A stretch of 33,266 nt of DNA from assembly GCA_034189865.1 (NCBI GenBank), contig JAXHTV010000027.1, positions 1 to 33,266 on the forward strand, read 5' to 3'. The position numbers and the translations under genes were made by a program. This DNA is from Pseudomonadota bacterium (GTDB lineage Bacteria; Pseudomonadota; Gammaproteobacteria; UBA5335). The notes below the pieces were generated by a model. The model was not told the origin of the DNA and ran no database searches. It was given only the letters and a program-made list of their open reading frames with translations. Position 1 is the first letter of the stretch, and every line of letters begins with the position of its first letter. Of this stretch, positions 14,492 through 27,208 are shown piece by piece.

Positions 14492-15322
14492 CTAAAGCGC
14501 CGACGCCACGAGGCGCTGAGTGTAGGCGTGCTGGGGATCTTCCAAGATCTGGTCGGTGAGTCCCGATTCCACGACCCGGCCGTACTTCATGACCAGGGTC
14601 CGGCCCGCGAGCAGCCGAATCACGCCCAGATCGTGAGTGACCACAATCATGGCCGTCTCGCGCTCCTGTTGGAGCTCGAGGATTAAATCCAAGATCGCCG
14701 CCTGAACGGAAAGATCCAAGCCGGTGGTCACCTCGTCGAGAAGTAGCAACGGGGGATCAGTGGCCAATGCCTTGGCAATCTGCACGCGCTGTTGCATGCC
14801 GCCCGAAAAGGTGCCGGGCAATTCATCCATTCGCTGCGCCAAGACTTCGGCGCGCGACAACAGGTTGATTGCCCGCTCGCGGATCGCCCGGTAGTTGTGG
14901 CGGTCGGCCATTAAAAGACGCTCGGCAATGTTGCCGCCGGCCGAGATCTCGAAGTTCAGTCCCTGATGGGGATTTTGATACACCATCCCGAAGCGGTGAT
15001 TGGCCAGACGGCGCCGCTGGGCCGCGTTCAACTCAAACAACTCGTATCGCTCGCCCCGGTCGAAAAACGTCGCCTGCCCGGCGGTGGGTTCCTGATCGAA
15101 ATAGAGACATTTCACAGCCGTCGATTTGCCCGAGCCCGACTCCCCCATGATGCCGAGAATCTCACCCTGGTGGAGATCGAACGAAACCTCATGGGCGGCG
15201 ACCACGCTGGCGCAGGCCGGGCAGATATTGGTCTCGAATTTCGGGCCGGTCGACTCGAAACAGGCCGGACACCCCGGGCCGTAGACCTTCGACAACCCAA
15301 CCACTTCGAGCACCTTACTCAT
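14492..15322 (-). CDS. phnK: C-P lyase ABC-type ATPase subunit PhnK with Cys4 insertion
   Basis: A 276-residue ABC ATPase that docks on the PhnG2H2I2J2 core near PhnJ. Walker A GESGSGKST is at 60-68, the signature FSGGMQQRVQ and Walker B LLLLDE follow, and the C-terminus is a typical PhnK end. Between the first strand and Walker A there is an insertion with two CPAC motifs (Cys18-Cys21 and Cys34-Cys37), a likely zinc-ribbon-like knuckle. As I recall it, E. coli PhnK lacks this segment. The start at 15322 overlaps the phnJ stop by eight bases. The frame is open upstream to 15589, but that part is antisense-like shadow of phnJ with no family similarity. Confidence 0.95.
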   Translation of the reverse strand: MSKVLEVVGLSKVYGPGCPACFESTGPKFETNICPACASVVAAHEVSFDLHQGEILGIMGESGSGKSTAVKCLYFDQEPTAGQATFFDRGERYELFELNAAQRRRLANHRFGMVYQNPHQGLNFEISAGGNIAERLLMADRHNYRAIRERAINLLSRAEVLAQRMDELPGTFSGGMQQRVQIAKALATDPPLLLLDEVTTGLDLSVQAAILDLILELQQERETAMIVVTHDLGVIRLLAGRTLVMKYGRVVESGLTDQILEDPQHAYTQRLVASAL

Positions 15323-16208
15323 TGATCTGCTCCAGTTGTCGCTCGCATTGCCGGGCCTCGCGTTGTTCGTTGCACCAGTCGGTATCGGAGCATTGATGCA
15401 CTTTGTCACCGCTGTTGGCGTCGATGAACTCGTCCAGAAAACTGTCGGTGCAACCGCAAACGGCACAGGGCCGACGGCGCCCAACGCCGTCCAGAAACGT
15501 CTCGACCCGGAACGGCACATCCTCAAACGCCAACGGCTCGGCGTCGGTGTAGGGAGGCACGGCGTAGATCTTTTTCTCGCGGCCCGCACCGAACAGGATC
15601 AACGCCTCGGAGCGGTGGATTTTGGGCACATCCCAGCGCGGTATAGGCGAGGGATCCAGTACGTAATATCCGTTCACTCGCGTGGGGTAGCGATGGGAGA
15701 TGGTGATTTCGTCAAACTGGACGATGTCTTCGTAAAGCTTCACCAACAGGCGTGAGTAGTCCGCCTCGCCGTGGAGGATTTTGCGTTTATCCTCAGATGG
15801 CTCGACCACCACCAGAGGGTCCGGATACGGCACTTGCAAAATCAGCAGTTGATCCTTCCGTAGTGGCTTTTCGGGGATGCGATGTCGGGACTGGATCAGA
15901 TCCGCCTCGCCGGTTTTGGCAGTGGTGTCGATTCCGGGGCAGGTCATCTCGATGAAGCTGCGCAGGTTCACGGCGTTCACGGAATCGTCGGACCCTTGAT
16001 CGATCACCTTCAAGGTGTCGTCCGGGCCGATCAAGGACAGGGTGAGCTGCAATCCCCCGGTGCCGAAGCCACGCCCCATGGGCATCTCCCGGCTGGAATA
16101 CGGCACTTGGTAACCGGGCAAGGCAATGGCCTTGAGAACGGAGCGACGGATCTCCTTCTTGGCGAACTCGTCTAGAAAACCGAACGGGTAAGACGACGGC
16201 GCGCTCAT
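15315..16208 (-). CDS. phnJ: Alpha-D-ribose 1-methylphosphonate 5-phosphate C-P lyase PhnJ
   Basis: A 297-residue radical SAM enzyme that breaks the carbon-phosphorus bond, giving the hydrocarbon and ribose 1,2-cyclic phosphate 5-phosphate. The unusual C-terminal cluster motif C-x2-C-x21-C-x5-C is exact (Cys248, Cys251, Cys273, Cys279). Gly32 lies in the conserved PGYQVP segment and corresponds to the glycyl-radical residue of the E. coli enzyme. The last cysteine of the motif corresponds to the catalytic thiyl residue. The start at 16208 overlaps the phnI stop in ATGA and puts Gly32 at its canonical number. The frame is open to 16307 without family similarity. All key residues are intact, so an active lyase is expected. 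Confidence 0.97.
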   Translation of the reverse strand: MSAPSSYPFGFLDEFAKKEIRRSVLKAIALPGYQVPYSSREMPMGRGFGTGGLQLTLSLIGPDDTLKVIDQGSDDSVNAVNLRSFIEMTCPGIDTTAKTGEADLIQSRHRIPEKPLRKDQLLILQVPYPDPLVVVEPSEDKRKILHGEADYSRLLVKLYEDIVQFDEITISHRYPTRVNGYYVLDPSPIPRWDVPKIHRSEALILFGAGREKKIYAVPPYTDAEPLAFEDVPFRVETFLDGVGRRRPCAVCGCTDSFLDEFIDANSGDKVHQCSDTDWCNEQREARQCERQLEQINE

Positions 16209-21258: not shown

Positions 21259-21990
21259 TCAAGGTCTGATGGACAGTTGTGCGGCATCCCCGCGGAAACG
21301 CGTTACGGCATATTCAACCGGCTCGCCGGTTGCGGTATCGACATTCAAACTTTTCACCCGCAAAACCGGCGCGTTGCGAGCCATCCGAAGCCGAAGGGCG
21401 TCATCCCGCTCCGGCAACACGGCGCTGATCAAGCTCTCGGTGCGGCGCAGCGACAAGGCGTAATGTTCTTTCAGGAATCCGTGCAACGAGCCTTGTTCAT
21501 AGTGATCCTTCACCTCGCTAAAACGAGAAGCCGGCAGAAAATGCGAAATGATGCAGAACGGCTGCCCTTCTACTTCGCGCAGTGTTTCGATGAACAACAC
21601 CGCCGTGCCGTCTTCCAGATTCAGACGTCTTGCGACACCACCGACTGCCGGAATCACCAGTTTTCTAAAAACCCGGCTGGCGGTACTCCGTCCCTGGGAG
21701 TGCAGCGTCTCGGTAAAACGGGTCGCGCTGCCGATGGCATAGTCGATGGCAGGGTTGAGCACCACAGTACCTTTGCCGTGAACACGCTCGACCAGTCCCG
21801 GCCCGATCAGCGCCTCCACCGCACGGCGAACCGTATGCCGGTTGACGCCGAAGCGCTCGGCCAGCTCGGCTTCGGAAGGCAGCATTTGCCCCGGCTCGTA
21901 GCGCTCGCGAATCTCACGCTCGAGCATTTCGGCAATCTGGGTGTAAACAGCACGGCCACCGGCCCGCCAACCCACAACTGATCTAGTCAT
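21259..21990 (-). CDS. phnF: GntR/HutC-family phosphonate operon regulator PhnF
   Basis: A 243-residue transcription regulator. A GntR winged helix-turn-helix (about 15-80, with the PSEAELAERFGVNRHTVRRA recognition region) is followed by a UTRA ligand-binding domain (about 95-235). Position at the head of the phn operon and domain type support PhnF. It is expected to repress the operon and release in response to a phosphorus-related ligand. Its own start codon lies inside the palindrome TCTAG-N4-CTAGA, which resembles the GTCTAGAC core reported for HutC-type regulators, so autoregulation is likely. Upstream sequence also contains a Pho-box-like pair. Confidence 0.93.
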   Translation of the reverse strand: MTRSVVGWRAGGRAVYTQIAEMLEREIRERYEPGQMLPSEAELAERFGVNRHTVRRAVEALIGPGLVERVHGKGTVVLNPAIDYAIGSATRFTETLHSQGRSTASRVFRKLVIPAVGGVARRLNLEDGTAVLFIETLREVEGQPFCIISHFLPASRFSEVKDHYEQGSLHGFLKEHYALSLRRTESLISAVLPERDDALRLRMARNAPVLRVKSLNVDTATGEPVEYAVTRFRGDAAQLSIRP

Positions 21991-22167: not shown

Positions 22168-22743
22168 CTAGTCGCTCAGCCACGCTCGACCGAATCGCTC
22201 GAACTTCGGCTGCCAGTAGTAGAGGATATGGCTGCTTTCGAAAACGAAAAACTCCAGGCCGTCGTTGTGCAGTTCGACCACGGTGGACATCTCCGGGGAG
22301 CATTGCGCGTAAGCTTTGCCGCACACCGTCTCGTAACGGCCCGGAGCAACACGCCGAATCCCGACTTGGCTGGCATCCATGCCGACAAACTCATCGATCA
22401 TCCGCCTTTTCGGCTGACCCATCGTGTCCGAGACAAAAAACAGGGCGACTTTTCCGGCGTTGGATTCCTGGGAGAACCTGATCTCGGCGACATCGCGTTT
22501 GCCATCACCATCGAAGTCCCCCGTCGCCTTGAGCGCTCCGTTCTCGAAATCACGACGCCAGTATTGCTCACCGTCCTGGCTCATCGGCAGCGCCTGCCAG
22601 ACTGTTTCGGCAGGCGGGTTGTTCAACGCATGTTCACTCAAGCCGGCCGGCTTGATGGAGCAAGCCGTGGCGATGACGAGCAACGGCACCAAAAACACAA
22701 GCCTAACCACAACCAGGCCGGAAGATGTTCGGTTCAAAATCAT
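22168..22743 (-). CDS. Putative lipoprotein with calcium-loop (FG-GAP/EF-hand-like) motif
   Basis: A 191-residue protein of unknown function. The N-terminus is a lipoprotein signal with hydrophobic residues about 11-25 and the lipobox IATAC ending at Cys28. Residues 76-84 (DFDGDGKRD) form an Asp-rich loop of the kind that binds calcium in FG-GAP/VCBS and EF-hand-like repeats. Three further cysteines lie in the C-terminal half (two of them in VCGKAYAQC). The start at 22743 was chosen because it begins the lipoprotein signal. The frame is open to 23016 but the extension has no plausible export signal. No clear ribosome-binding site is visible. A decayed copy of its C-terminal part lies at 25874-25955. 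Confidence 0.72.
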   Translation of the reverse strand: MILNRTSSGLVVVRLVFLVPLLVIATACSIKPAGLSEHALNNPPAETVWQALPMSQDGEQYWRRDFENGALKATGDFDGDGKRDVAEIRFSQESNAGKVALFFVSDTMGQPKRRMIDEFVGMDASQVGIRRVAPGRYETVCGKAYAQCSPEMSTVVELHNDGLEFFVFESSHILYYWQPKFERFGRAWLSD

Positions 22744-23181
22744 GGGTAATACAGCTTCGCCAAAATAGACGCTCAAGGATCGTATTCCAGGCGGATATGA
22801 TCTGACTCTACAAAACCAAGTCCTCGGAAAAATTCTTCTTTCTCTTGCAAAGTTGAGGCCACGGATCATGACAACGGCACAACACCATGTTAGTTTGCCA
22901 AACGGCGTCAAACACCACTCGGGTCGGGTATGAACCCAAGCTTGACGGAGAAAAATAACGGATGGATGGAGAGAATAATGAAAAAAACTTAACCAATGCC
23001 GAAGAATCTCAAGCATGTTGCACTATGTCGACAGATCGTAAAGTCGGTTTAGGTTTGATCCGAATATCCAATAACAGCGTCGAGAGGACAACATATTGAT
23101 GAAATGGAAAAGGACAAGCGTGCTCTCCCGACGAAAGCACTCAAATACCCCCCACTCTCCGTCACCAATTTTTGATCGACC
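22744..23181. other. AT-rich divergent intergenic region
   Basis: About 440 bases between the lipoprotein start (minus) and the TPR gene start (plus). Some lines are well below the surrounding GC content; for example 22981-23040 is 23 of 60 G or C by hand count. No gene, repeat or mobile-element end was recognised. It should contain both divergent promoters. Confidence 0.4.
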
Positions 23182-24915
23182 ATGAAGATACGTAAAATAA
23201 TCACCGTAGCGGTACATTTTGCCGCGGTTTTTCTCTCCGCGAGCGCCGTAGCCACCGAGAACACCCCATCACAAGAGCCCGGGCTAGAGTGGGAGATCGC
23301 AAGTAGCTATGCCATCAAAAGCCTGTTTCGCAACGATTACTTTGGTGCGGTTAGCGAAGGTCAAAGGGCGCTTAAACTCGCGACCGAAAATCTCGCCTCT
23401 CAACACCCGGCAGTCATTACCAGCGTCAGAACCTTGGCTTGGGCTTATGATCTTCGTCAGGAGTACGATCTCGCCGAACCACTCTACCAACGCTTGCTGG
23501 CAATTACCGAAAGAGAGAAAGGCTCGTTTCATCCGGAGGTCGCGGACAGACTCGACGACCTAGCCAGCCACTATCGCATACGTGGGGCGGACACCAAGGC
23601 GGATCCACTGCGTAAACGCGCGTCGGCGATTCGGCAACAAGAACATCATCCTTACGAGTCTTACTTCGCTGACGACCCCAGAACACCGATGGCCGTGGAT
23701 GAGCTACTGACTCAGGATTGGGAATCGCAAGCGGAAGCTTATTATCGCCTCACGGCGCTGGCAATCGAAGGACTATTGCTTCCCGACCATCCGCTGGTCG
23801 CCACAAGCCTGGACAATCTCGCCGCATTTTATGAAGCCCAGGGCTCGTATATCCAAGCAGAGCCACTCTACCAAACTGCATTGGAAATCCGGTCGCAATC
23901 TCTGGGAAAAGATCATCTAGAAGTCGCAAACAGCCTCAACCGTTTGGCGCGGCTTTACTATGCCGAGGGTAACTACGTCAAAGCCAAGCCACTCCATAAA
24001 TACGCCCTGGGCATCCAAAGAGACGAACTGAACCTGGACCACCTGGACATCGCGAACACTTACGATGACCTTGCAAAAATTTCTCTCATCGAAGGGAATC
24101 CGTCCGAAGCGCTCCGATACGCCTATCGCGCCCTCGTGATCCGGGAAAAATTGCAGGGCCCTTTCCACGCAGACGTTGCGAATACGACCAACCGATTGGC
24201 GAGATCGTTCTTCATTCGGGGTATGGGCGAATACGCCGACGTGTACCTGAAGCGTACCCTCGCGATTCGGGAGAAAACTCTGGGCCCTGACCATCCGGAA
24301 GTCGCAAACGCGCTGAACAATTTGGCGGCACACTGCTTTGACATGATGAAGTTTGAACAAGCCGAAGCGCTGTACAATCAGTCCCTCGCGATTCGGGAGA
24401 AGGCGCTGGGTAAGGAGCACCCTGCCGTCGCGGAGATCCTCGGTACGCTCGGCTCCATCTACAAGCAATACGGCCAACCTGAAAAGGCTCAACCGTACTT
24501 TGAACGTGCCCTGGCCATCTGGCAGAAAACGCCTAATCCGAGCAGTTCGGCATTCATACCGACCCTAGCGGCCATGATCTCGGTCCATGCGTCGCGACAA
24601 GACTACGCCCAGGCCGAAGTATTGGCTCGGCGTCTGGCGGCCATCATTGAAAAAACATGGGGTGGTGAGCATCTGGCGTATGCCAGTGCCTTGGACGATT
24701 TGGCGTGGATTCGCCTAAAGCAAGAGCAAACGGCCGACGCCGAACATTTGCTCAACCGTGCGTTGGACATACGCAAGAAATCGATGAGCCCAGGCCATCC
24801 CGAGCTGGTTCGCACCCTGCGAAGATTAGCGTCGTATTATCGAGAAACCGGACAAGACGACAAAGCGTCCGAGCTCGAAAAACAAGCCGATAGCCTCGGC
24901 AACTTCGCTGGTTAG
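23182..24915 (+). CDS. Secreted tetratricopeptide-repeat protein (kinesin light chain-like TPRs)
   Basis: A 577-residue protein. An N-terminal Sec signal peptide (about 1-25, ending SASAVA) is followed by roughly ten 42-residue TPR units from about residue 35 to 570, each with the pattern AEPLY-A-L-IREK-LG--HP-VA-SLNNLA. This is the TPR_12-like type found in kinesin light chain and in many bacterial scaffolds. No catalytic domain is visible, so a protein-binding scaffold in the periplasm or outside the cell is inferred. The segment around 150-185 departs from the repeat and may be a degenerate unit. It is followed after 27-36 bases by a shorter paralogue, forming a likely two-gene operon. Confidence 0.82.
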   Translation: MKIRKIITVAVHFAAVFLSASAVATENTPSQEPGLEWEIASSYAIKSLFRNDYFGAVSEGQRALKLATENLASQHPAVITSVRTLAWAYDLRQEYDLAEPLYQRLLAITEREKGSFHPEVADRLDDLASHYRIRGADTKADPLRKRASAIRQQEHHPYESYFADDPRTPMAVDELLTQDWESQAEAYYRLTALAIEGLLLPDHPLVATSLDNLAAFYEAQGSYIQAEPLYQTALEIRSQSLGKDHLEVANSLNRLARLYYAEGNYVKAKPLHKYALGIQRDELNLDHLDIANTYDDLAKISLIEGNPSEALRYAYRALVIREKLQGPFHADVANTTNRLARSFFIRGMGEYADVYLKRTLAIREKTLGPDHPEVANALNNLAAHCFDMMKFEQAEALYNQSLAIREKALGKEHPAVAEILGTLGSIYKQYGQPEKAQPYFERALAIWQKTPNPSSSAFIPTLAAMISVHASRQDYAQAEVLARRLAAIIEKTWGGEHLAYASALDDLAWIRLKQEQTADAEHLLNRALDIRKKSMSPGHPELVRTLRRLASYYRETGQDDKASELEKQADSLGNFAG

Positions 24916-24951
24916 TACCCCGTTTCAGGTAAGACATCAAGAGTGAATACC

Positions 24952-25791
24952 ATGAGAAAAGCCATCCCTGAAGGCCTGTTGATCTTACTCATTGCATCTG
25001 CAACCGCTCTGGCACATGCAGAAGATATGGGGCTTGAGTGGCAAATCCTTCGACAGGAGAGCTCGCGACTCAGTTGGGAAAAGGACAAGCACTCCTCCGC
25101 ATTGATTCTTGCTCGGGATTTGCTCGAGCTCGCCGAAGAGCGTCTCGGCCCTGATCATCGTGAAATCGCAAACTGTCTCACGGACATCGCCGGCATATAT
25201 CAACAGATGGAACGACGTGAAGAGGCGCTAGCGCTGCAAAAGCGGGCGGGAGAAGTGTACCAACGCTCGCTGGCGATGCAAGAAAAGGCGCTCGGCAAAG
25301 ATCACCCGGAGGTCGCTAAAACCCTCATCGACATGGGGATCAACTACCACAGATACGAAGATCGCGACAAAGCCGAATCGCTTTTCACCCGTGCCTTGGA
25401 AATACAGGAAAAAGCGCTGGGCGAAAACCATCCCGAGGTGGCAAACACGCTGGATTTGATTGCGGATTATCGGAACGATACATCCGAAGTCGAACCACTT
25501 TTGGAGCGTTCGCTGGAAATCAGGAAGAATGCCTTTGGGCCAACCGATCCTGCAGTCGCGATCAGCCTCGACCGACTTGGCGAGCTCAGAAAAAGTCAAG
25601 ATCGGTACTTGGAATCCGAGCAGCTTTTTAAACGTTCACTGGAGATCCGAAAAGCCGCTTATAGTTCACATGATCCCACCGTCGCTTACAGCCTGGAATA
25701 TTTAGCCTGGCTTTATCACGACATGGGTAGAAAAGAGGAAGCGGCAGCTTTGAAAGAGCGCGCTGAAAGTATGCTAAAAGACACCGAGTAA
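24952..25791 (+). CDS. Secreted tetratricopeptide-repeat protein, shorter paralogue
   Basis: A 279-residue protein paralogous to the preceding gene. A signal peptide (about 1-23, ending ALAHA) is followed by a GLEW-Q motif shared with the first gene (GLEWEI there), then about five TPR units. Residues matching the repeat consensus (EKALGKDHPEVA, EKALGENHPEVANTL) are clear. The ATG at 24952 has AAGAG upstream at a suitable distance; a GTG at 24943 in the same frame would add three residues. Like its neighbour it has no catalytic domain. The two probably bind the same or related partners. Confidence 0.8.
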   Translation: MRKAIPEGLLILLIASATALAHAEDMGLEWQILRQESSRLSWEKDKHSSALILARDLLELAEERLGPDHREIANCLTDIAGIYQQMERREEALALQKRAGEVYQRSLAMQEKALGKDHPEVAKTLIDMGINYHRYEDRDKAESLFTRALEIQEKALGENHPEVANTLDLIADYRNDTSEVEPLLERSLEIRKNAFGPTDPAVAISLDRLGELRKSQDRYLESEQLFKRSLEIRKAAYSSHDPTVAYSLEYLAWLYHDMGRKEEAAALKERAESMLKDTE

Positions 25792-25839
25792 AAAGCGTCT
25801 TCAGCCGGGCAAACAAGCAGCACCTGCGCCCCAACCACG

Positions 25840-25955
25840 GGCCAGCTCGGCTTCGGAAACGCAACATCTGCCCTGGCTGCTTTCGAAAACAAAAAACTTT
25901 AAGCCGGCATGGCGCAGTTCAACCACGTTGGACATTGCGGCGAACAGGCGTGGTG
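25840..25955 (-). pseudogene. Fused remnant of lipoprotein and GntR regulator sequence
   Basis: Bases 25840-25858 match 21859-21877 of phnF exactly over 19 bases, and the match continues weakly to about 25876 with one extra base that shifts the frame. Bases 25874-25898 then match 22229-22253 in the lipoprotein gene with one mismatch over 25 bases. On the minus strand the following codons (about 25880-25955) translate to MSNVVELRHAGLKFFVFESS, close to residues 152-171 of the lipoprotein. The order lipoprotein then regulator is the same as in the intact pair, with the intervening bases deleted at a GGCT shared by both partners. The remnant has no start codon or complete domain. Confidence 0.7.
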
Positions 25956-26296
25956 GCTGCTGTCATCCAGGTGATTTCCCTTGACCCGCATTACGCCGCT
26001 TCTGTCGGCTGACGGGTATCAACGGACTGGCTAGTTCGGCACGGAAGCACTCCACCGACGCCCCCCTCAACTAAGCCGGCCCAAGGATTGACCGCGCCAT
26101 AATCTCAACTCCTCCGATCACCGCAAACCCAATGCCGATCGACAGTGACTGCAAAATCTTACCTTCCGCCCATTCGGCCAATTTGCGACGGGGTGACTCC
26201 CAGTTTTTTGGGAATAAGGTCTCAAGTTTCCGTGAATCGCAATTTTTTGCGGGAATGACATACTCCTAGGTGCTTGTATTTATTGGTTTTACGAAG

Positions 26297-26312
26297 TTGG
26301 CACAACCCATGC
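26297..26312 (+). promoter_or_regulatory. Sigma-54-like promoter of the secreted hydrolase gene
   Basis: TTGGCAC at 26297-26303 and ATGC at 26309-26312 place the GG and GC exactly ten bases apart, as required for RpoN promoters, and TTGGCAC is the consensus -24 box. The -12 box has ATGC rather than TTGC. Transcription would begin near 26324, giving a leader of about 144 bases before the start at 26468. A second similar sequence at 26344-26360 has 11 bases between GG and GC and is probably not functional. Confidence 0.5.
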
Positions 26313-26330
26313 GAAAGGGCTGACACGCAA

Positions 26331-26410
26331 CAGGAGCGGTCAGTTGGCACGTGGCGATGCGACCGGCGCATCAGTGAACGCGCTGTGCCGCGCCAATGAC
26401 TCCGCTCCTG
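26331..26410 (+). repeat. Long-range inverted repeat in the leader of the hydrolase gene
   Basis: CAGGAGCGG (26331-26339) and CCGCTCCTG (26402-26410) are exact complements 62 bases apart and both lie between the predicted transcription start and the start codon. A leader structure is possible. Chance occurrence of a nine-base match over this distance cannot be excluded. Confidence 0.3.
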
Positions 26411-26467
26411 ACGCGACCCACGATCAGCAATCAAGCCATCCAACAATCGGAAAACCAGGAGTCAATC

Positions 26468-27208
26468 ATGAATGCCTTCACGAAAACGCTGGGCACCGTC
26501 GCCACACTGGCCGCCGCTGTCTCGACCGCACTCGCCGCCCTACCCAATCCGGGCATGGAGATCGAAAAGGGAAGAACGGCGCTGGTCGTCACCGATCCGC
26601 AGAACGACTTTCTGAGCCCCGATGGCGTCACTTGGGGCGTGGTGGGCAAAAACGTCGAAGCCAACAACACGGTGAAGAACATCGAGACGCTGTTTAAATC
26701 GGCCAAGGCCAACGACATCCCGGTGTTCGTCTCGCCGCACTACTACTACCCGCACGACCATGAGTGGAAGTTCGAAGGCGCACTGGAAACGCTGATGCAC
26801 AAGATCGGGATGTTCGACCGCAAAGGCCCCGTAAACGTGGACGGACTCGAAGGTTCCGGCGCCGATTGGCTGGCGCAATACAAACCCTACATCGAGGATG
26901 GGAAAACGGTCGTATCCAGTCCGCACAAGGTCTACGGACCCGAGACCAATGATCTGGTTCTTCAGCTGCGAAAGCGTGGAATCGACAAGGTCATACTCGC
27001 GGGGATGTCCGCCAATCTTTGCACGGAATCCCACATGCGCGAGCTGGTAGAACAGGGTTTTGAAGTGGCGGTGGTCAAAGACGCAACTGCCGCGGCCCAA
27101 GTCGAGGAAGGTGACGGCTACGCCGCCGCACTCATTAACTTCCGCTTTATCGCCAACACGGTATGGACAACCGAAGACGCCAACAAGGCGATGGCGGGCA
27201 CGAAATAA
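26468..27208 (+). CDS. Secreted isochorismatase-family cysteine hydrolase
   Basis: A 246-residue isochorismatase-like hydrolase. An N-terminal signal peptide (about 1-23) is followed by the fold from about residue 35. The catalytic triad of the family is present: Asp43 (VTDPQNDF), Lys154 (SPHKVYG) and Cys185 (SANLCTE). Relatives hydrolyse isochorismate, nicotinamide, N-carbamoylsarcosine, biuret or similar amides, and the substrate here is unknown. Most family members are cytoplasmic, so the export signal is unusual. The start at 26468 is supported by AGGAG six bases upstream; the frame is open to 26396. The gene is alone on its strand and has a sigma-54-like promoter. Confidence 0.9.
   Translation: MNAFTKTLGTVATLAAAVSTALAALPNPGMEIEKGRTALVVTDPQNDFLSPDGVTWGVVGKNVEANNTVKNIETLFKSAKANDIPVFVSPHYYYPHDHEWKFEGALETLMHKIGMFDRKGPVNVDGLEGSGADWLAQYKPYIEDGKTVVSSPHKVYGPETNDLVLQLRKRGIDKVILAGMSANLCTESHMRELVEQGFEVAVVKDATAAAQVEEGDGYAAALINFRFIANTVWTTEDANKAMAGTK

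Follow-up and report, generated by a model that had tools for sequence, protein, structure and literature searches.

Prokaryotic pseudogene fragments in intergenic DNA have been surveyed, with duplication, single-copy decay and failed transfer listed as their origins (PMC522871). For Vibrio T6SS arrays, it has been proposed that older gene pieces were displaced behind newly inserted genes by a homology-anchored route (PMC5361080). Here, we describe a fragment that invites comparison with both. We interpret the 107 bases at 25840-25946 of the window (the whole 33,266-nucleotide stretch of DNA that was analyzed) as a non-functional, decayed relic of a second phnF-lipoprotein segment, with a probability of about 0.9. 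The intact pair, the putative relic and the DNA between them comprise the following features.

21259 to 21990, minus strand: intact phnF, GntR/UTRA regulator of the C-P lyase operon (NCBIfam TIGR02325, 231.7 bits, cut-off 156.8; Pfam GntR and UTRA)
22168 to 22743, minus strand: intact putative lipoprotein gene, 191 aa from the ATG at 22743 (the mechanical open reading frame reaches 23016)
22744 to 23181, no strand: AT-rich spacer from the lipoprotein gene to TPR gene 1, GC 0.452, single copy in the genome
23182 to 24915, plus strand: TPR gene 1, 577 aa, TPR_12/TPR_10 repeats (Pfam), codon-fit 0.025
24943 to 25791, plus strand: TPR gene 2, 282 aa (Pfam), codon-fit -0.022, GC3 0.551
25840 to 25878, minus strand: putative phnF relic, counterpart of phnF 21859-21896, codons around PGQMLPSEAELA, 39 alignment columns, 87% identical
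25874 to 25946, minus strand: putative lipoprotein relic, counterpart of 22229-22302, codons CSPEMSTVVELHNDGLEFFVFESS, joined to the phnF relic at GGCT
25875 to 25878, no strand: GGCT at the presumed deletion joint, found in both parent sites (21893-21896 and 22230-22233) and once at the joint

The intact phnF adjoins a phosphonate-binding-protein gene. The putative lipoprotein belongs to no Pfam or NCBIfam family, and its translation contains a lipobox-like VIATAC, seen by eye. Elsewhere in the window, the PhnK match in 14492-15589 covers only residues 132-365 of a GTG-started open reading frame, whose true start is probably further in.

The relic was first noticed in a sequence-only reading of this DNA through two short matches, and both are present: 19 of 19 bases to phnF (25840-25858 versus 21859-21877) and 24 of 25 bases, with one mismatch, to the lipoprotein gene (25874-25898 versus 22229-22253). 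The same reading had described a lipoprotein-like in-frame translation, which is VVELRHAGLKFFVFESS in the relic and VVELHNDGLEFFVFESS in the intact gene, and had correctly placed the two blocks in the order and orientation of the intact pair. The alignment is longer than was seen at that time. The phnF part runs unbroken up to the GGCT, with one 1-nt insertion near 25857 in the alignment with intact phnF, and lies 3981 nt from its intact counterpart. The lipoprotein part continues to 25935 with 52 of 62 positions identical (84% in this core) and, past a 1-nt gap, more faintly to 25946 (8 of 11), about 73 nt overall. On either outer flank of 25840-25946, ungapped identity is 11 of 40, as expected by chance. 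Permissive collinear alignment was no better than shuffles either for the right flank against the rest of the lipoprotein gene and the spacer (94 of 300 shuffles reach the score) or for the left flank against the rest of phnF and phnD (259 of 300). Therefore, nothing of the second copy is readable beyond these approximately 107 bases.

Whether similarity extends past the short matches had been named as a point on which the relic could fail; when aligned with the intact pair, the blocks do extend, with local scores of 51 (phnF) and 76 (lipoprotein) compared to best scores of 31 and 29, respectively, in 500 Markov shuffles each. When the whole window was searched against itself by BLAST, these blocks were the top two matches (E 4e-12 and 4e-5, the next being 0.002). 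We also searched the organism's own genome, a draft of 2,909,356 bases (2.9 Mb) in 72 contigs, in which the lipoprotein block has an E value of 6.3e-12 and the phnF block 4.1e-5. A query of 25780-26480 recovered itself and the two parent sites, and every other match had an E value of at least 0.95. Thus, among the GntR genes of the genome, phnF remains the best fit for its block, where a different GntR source had been a concern. For the intact lipoprotein region, the relic was the one match besides itself.

The relic lacks 337 bp of the intact pair, made up of the lipoprotein gene's 3' end, the spacer between the genes and the 5' end of phnF. The shared GGCT reported in the sequence-only reading is common to both matches, and its presence at both ends of the lost segment supports a microhomology deletion, although a 4-nt repeat is short and could be a chance occurrence. 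Loss across GGCT would be a deletion of the usual short-repeat kind. The changes that disable the relic are thus several: both gene pieces are truncated, they are fused, the phnF part carries the 1-nt insertion and the 337 bp are missing.

How the copies differ is informative about the history of the second one. There are 17 aligned differences between relic and intact sequence, 4 in phnF and 13 in the lipoprotein gene, and all but one of them (16 of 17) fall within 34 complete codons, where 10 are silent and 6 are replacements. In 3000 home-made simulations with a single transition bias, half of all mutations being transitions, neutral decay of the relic alone reached this proportion of silent changes in 0.03% of runs (P 0.0003). 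When the parent received as many mutations but retained only the silent ones, the figure rose to 2.6% (P 0.026; 3000 simulations). Because silent differences exceed what decay since duplication is expected to give, the second copy was probably once a working gene or allele before it broke, either a paralogue here or an allele of another lineage; the evidence, 16 differences and one simple mutation model, is moderate. Some of the divergence seems to predate the decay, which is what a second copy that came in from elsewhere, or that had long been functional, would show. Of the old duplication, microhomology deletion and drift first proposed, the second-copy relic and the GGCT-ended deletion are supported, while drift alone after a duplication within the genome fits only moderately, most differences being silent.

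The DNA between the copies is distinctive in composition, with a GC content of 0.51-0.55 compared to about 0.57-0.63 on either side. Both TPR genes lie outside the codon-fit range of the other 23 genes scored (0.109-0.245). This score is home-made and takes its reference codon usage from this window only, leaving out TPR1, TPR2 and the lipoprotein gene; open reading frames of the window with no clear family were not scored, and the label "phnI?" is a tentative name. TPR gene 1 had matches at E 1e-20 in 5 of 55 other genomes searched (30-48% identity) and in 0 of 8 order relatives, several of which are incomplete genomes. Absence from these relatives is weak evidence, since the same 8 also lack phnF (at 1e-25), the lipoprotein gene, the isochorismatase-like gene and the DUF4386 gene. 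Taken together, these results make the TPR genes between the copies look acquired. A probably acquired patch had been placed at 22.2-26 kb, and the codon-deviant TPR genes bear this out for part of it; codon-fit is ordinary for the window in phnF (0.143) and in the lipoprotein gene (0.137, GC3 0.724), so the odd stretch is approximately 22.74-25.84 kb, the TPR genes and spacer. The two TPR genes (23182-25791) are 36% alike over the repeats and, by eye, share a similar N-terminal region after a signal-peptide-like start (GLEW...). The duplication that produced them is probably older than that of phnF and the lipoprotein gene.

A foreign-looking block with direct repeats on either side is the expected product of homology-anchored insertion. 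We tentatively favor a route in which the TPR block was inserted via phnF-lipoprotein homology and the older copy was displaced, because this single event would explain why the TPR codon usage looks foreign, why phnF is cut internally and why silent differences are in excess. The TPR genes would have arrived on DNA that carried a related phnF-lipoprotein segment ahead of them. One end of this DNA would have paired with homologous sequence in phnF, and the other would have been attached by illegitimate joining (or by a single crossover of a circle). One pair would have stayed intact beside the phn operon, and the other, cut inside phnF, would have ended up beyond the TPR genes, there losing 337 bp across the 4-nt microhomology and decaying.

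Tandem duplication of phnF-lipoprotein within this genome, with both copies working for a while before the TPR genes entered separately between them and the outer copy lost its 337 bp and decayed, is a possible history that performs nearly as well as the insertion route. The order and orientation fit, as does the single-copy status elsewhere in the genome. If both copies worked for some time, the silent excess would follow as well; this excess (10 of 16; P 0.0003 and 0.026) fits long-lived paralogues and separate-lineage alleles alike. This history nevertheless needs two independent events at one place, and no intact tandem pair occurs in any genome searched. It is unlikely that a whole block of about 3.98 kb, from inside phnF through the lipoprotein gene and both TPR genes, was duplicated in tandem and its second copy then almost entirely lost. 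Such a duplication would make the order in one event, and its joint would lie at the abrupt left end inside phnF, in keeping with the 3981-nt spacing of the phnF blocks. It should, however, leave a trace of the spacer or TPR genes to the right of the relic, and none is seen: 25947-26395 is single copy and at chance level against 22304-23181. It also leaves the TPR gene composition unexplained.

Relatives do little to separate these histories. The closest in our collection are five family members, all of other genera. Among 55 other genomes, phnF-lipoprotein DNA gave only matches of 26-35 bases in 3 (E 3.7e-4 to 8.7e-4), which we took as background. The best phnF relatives found are 57% and 54% identical; 2 of 368 other class genomes reach that level, and 6 of 368 have a match at E 1e-25. 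No lipoprotein gene is detectable in the 10-kb stretches around these two, and their DNA is too diverged to polarize the phnF differences. The lipoprotein family is rare, with relatives in 3 of 368 other class genomes and at 4 loci in the genome collection, and none in the viral contigs and plasmids searched. Because these relatives, in what was searched, are only 25-41% identical, the copies cannot be rooted. A lipoprotein gene adjoining phnF is known from this genome alone. Within the stretches examined, phnF, TPR gene 1 and the isochorismatase-like gene occur at 0 of the 8 lipoprotein-relative loci (L009 to L015 and L055; since L055 covers the place of L009 at greater length, these are seven distinct places). 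The sequence-only reading had suggested looking in related genomes for an intact second pair or a TPR-free locus; neither of these, and no donor, was found in the genomes searched, in which relatives are few and distant, and their absence says little.

Two of the lipoprotein relatives deserve mention in their own right. In Pseudomonas alcaligenes MRY13-0052 (L012:5770-11262), the relative lies directly behind a small gene with, by eye, a GG-type leader-like start. An HlyD-type gene and a C39-peptidase ABC exporter precede that small gene, and a Fic-domain gene follows the lipoprotein relative. This placement is possibly that of a protein with an immunity or accessory role for a secreted peptide or protein. 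The best class relative (L009/L055, G129:C14:17957-18304) has one in-frame TGA and may be a pseudogene or mis-sequenced.

We consider it very unlikely that the relic has been kept as a regulatory antisense segment. No terminator-like site was found after TPR gene 2, and plus-strand RNA reading through from the TPR genes would be complementary to the phnF and lipoprotein mRNAs, with predicted duplexes of -78.7 and -89.5 kcal/mol, respectively; Rfam and tRNA scans of the window gave no matches. If the antisense interpretation were true, the phosphonate regulator could be silenced when the TPR genes are expressed. Further downstream, the isochorismatase-domain protein at 26396-27208 has, by eye, a signal-peptide-like start from an ATG near 26470 and is possibly an exported family member.

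Less credible still is an assembly artefact: a false join of a repeat is conceivable in a draft of 72 contigs, but it would yield near-identical copies, whereas these differ at 17 aligned sites plus gaps, and the relic sits within a contig. To chance or convergent similarity, in which conserved GntR helix-turn-helix codons happen to adjoin a random lipoprotein-like stretch, we give practically no weight, for although the phnF part covers an LPSExELA-type region common to PhnF and its relatives, the scores are far above those of shuffles, the blocks come from adjacent genes in the right order and the next-best genome matches have E values of 0.95 or worse. The shuffles, the own-genome search and the self-comparison of the window rule out chance and an origin in another GntR gene.

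The relic is real but an ordinary scar of a past DNA insertion or duplication. It leaves our knowledge of phosphonate use and of bacterial gene decay unchanged; its value is as a readable scar of how accessory genes can come to adjoin an operon regulator and of what remains of a displaced or duplicated copy. The intact gene scores above the curated cut-off for PhnF (TIGR02325), but the relic retains only about 38 nt of this gene and could not code for a regulator. Unlike in the Vibrio case (PMC5361080), effector and immunity genes are not involved here, and the route is inferred. The favored arrangement resembles homology-facilitated illegitimate recombination (PMC3240628, PMC5361080), which would place new genes beside a homologous anchor and can push old pieces behind them. 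Like the fragments of the prokaryotic survey (PMC522871), the relic is a disabled, truncated piece of known genes in intergenic DNA; it differs in that it fuses pieces of two adjacent genes by one internal deletion and lies a few kilobases from its intact source.
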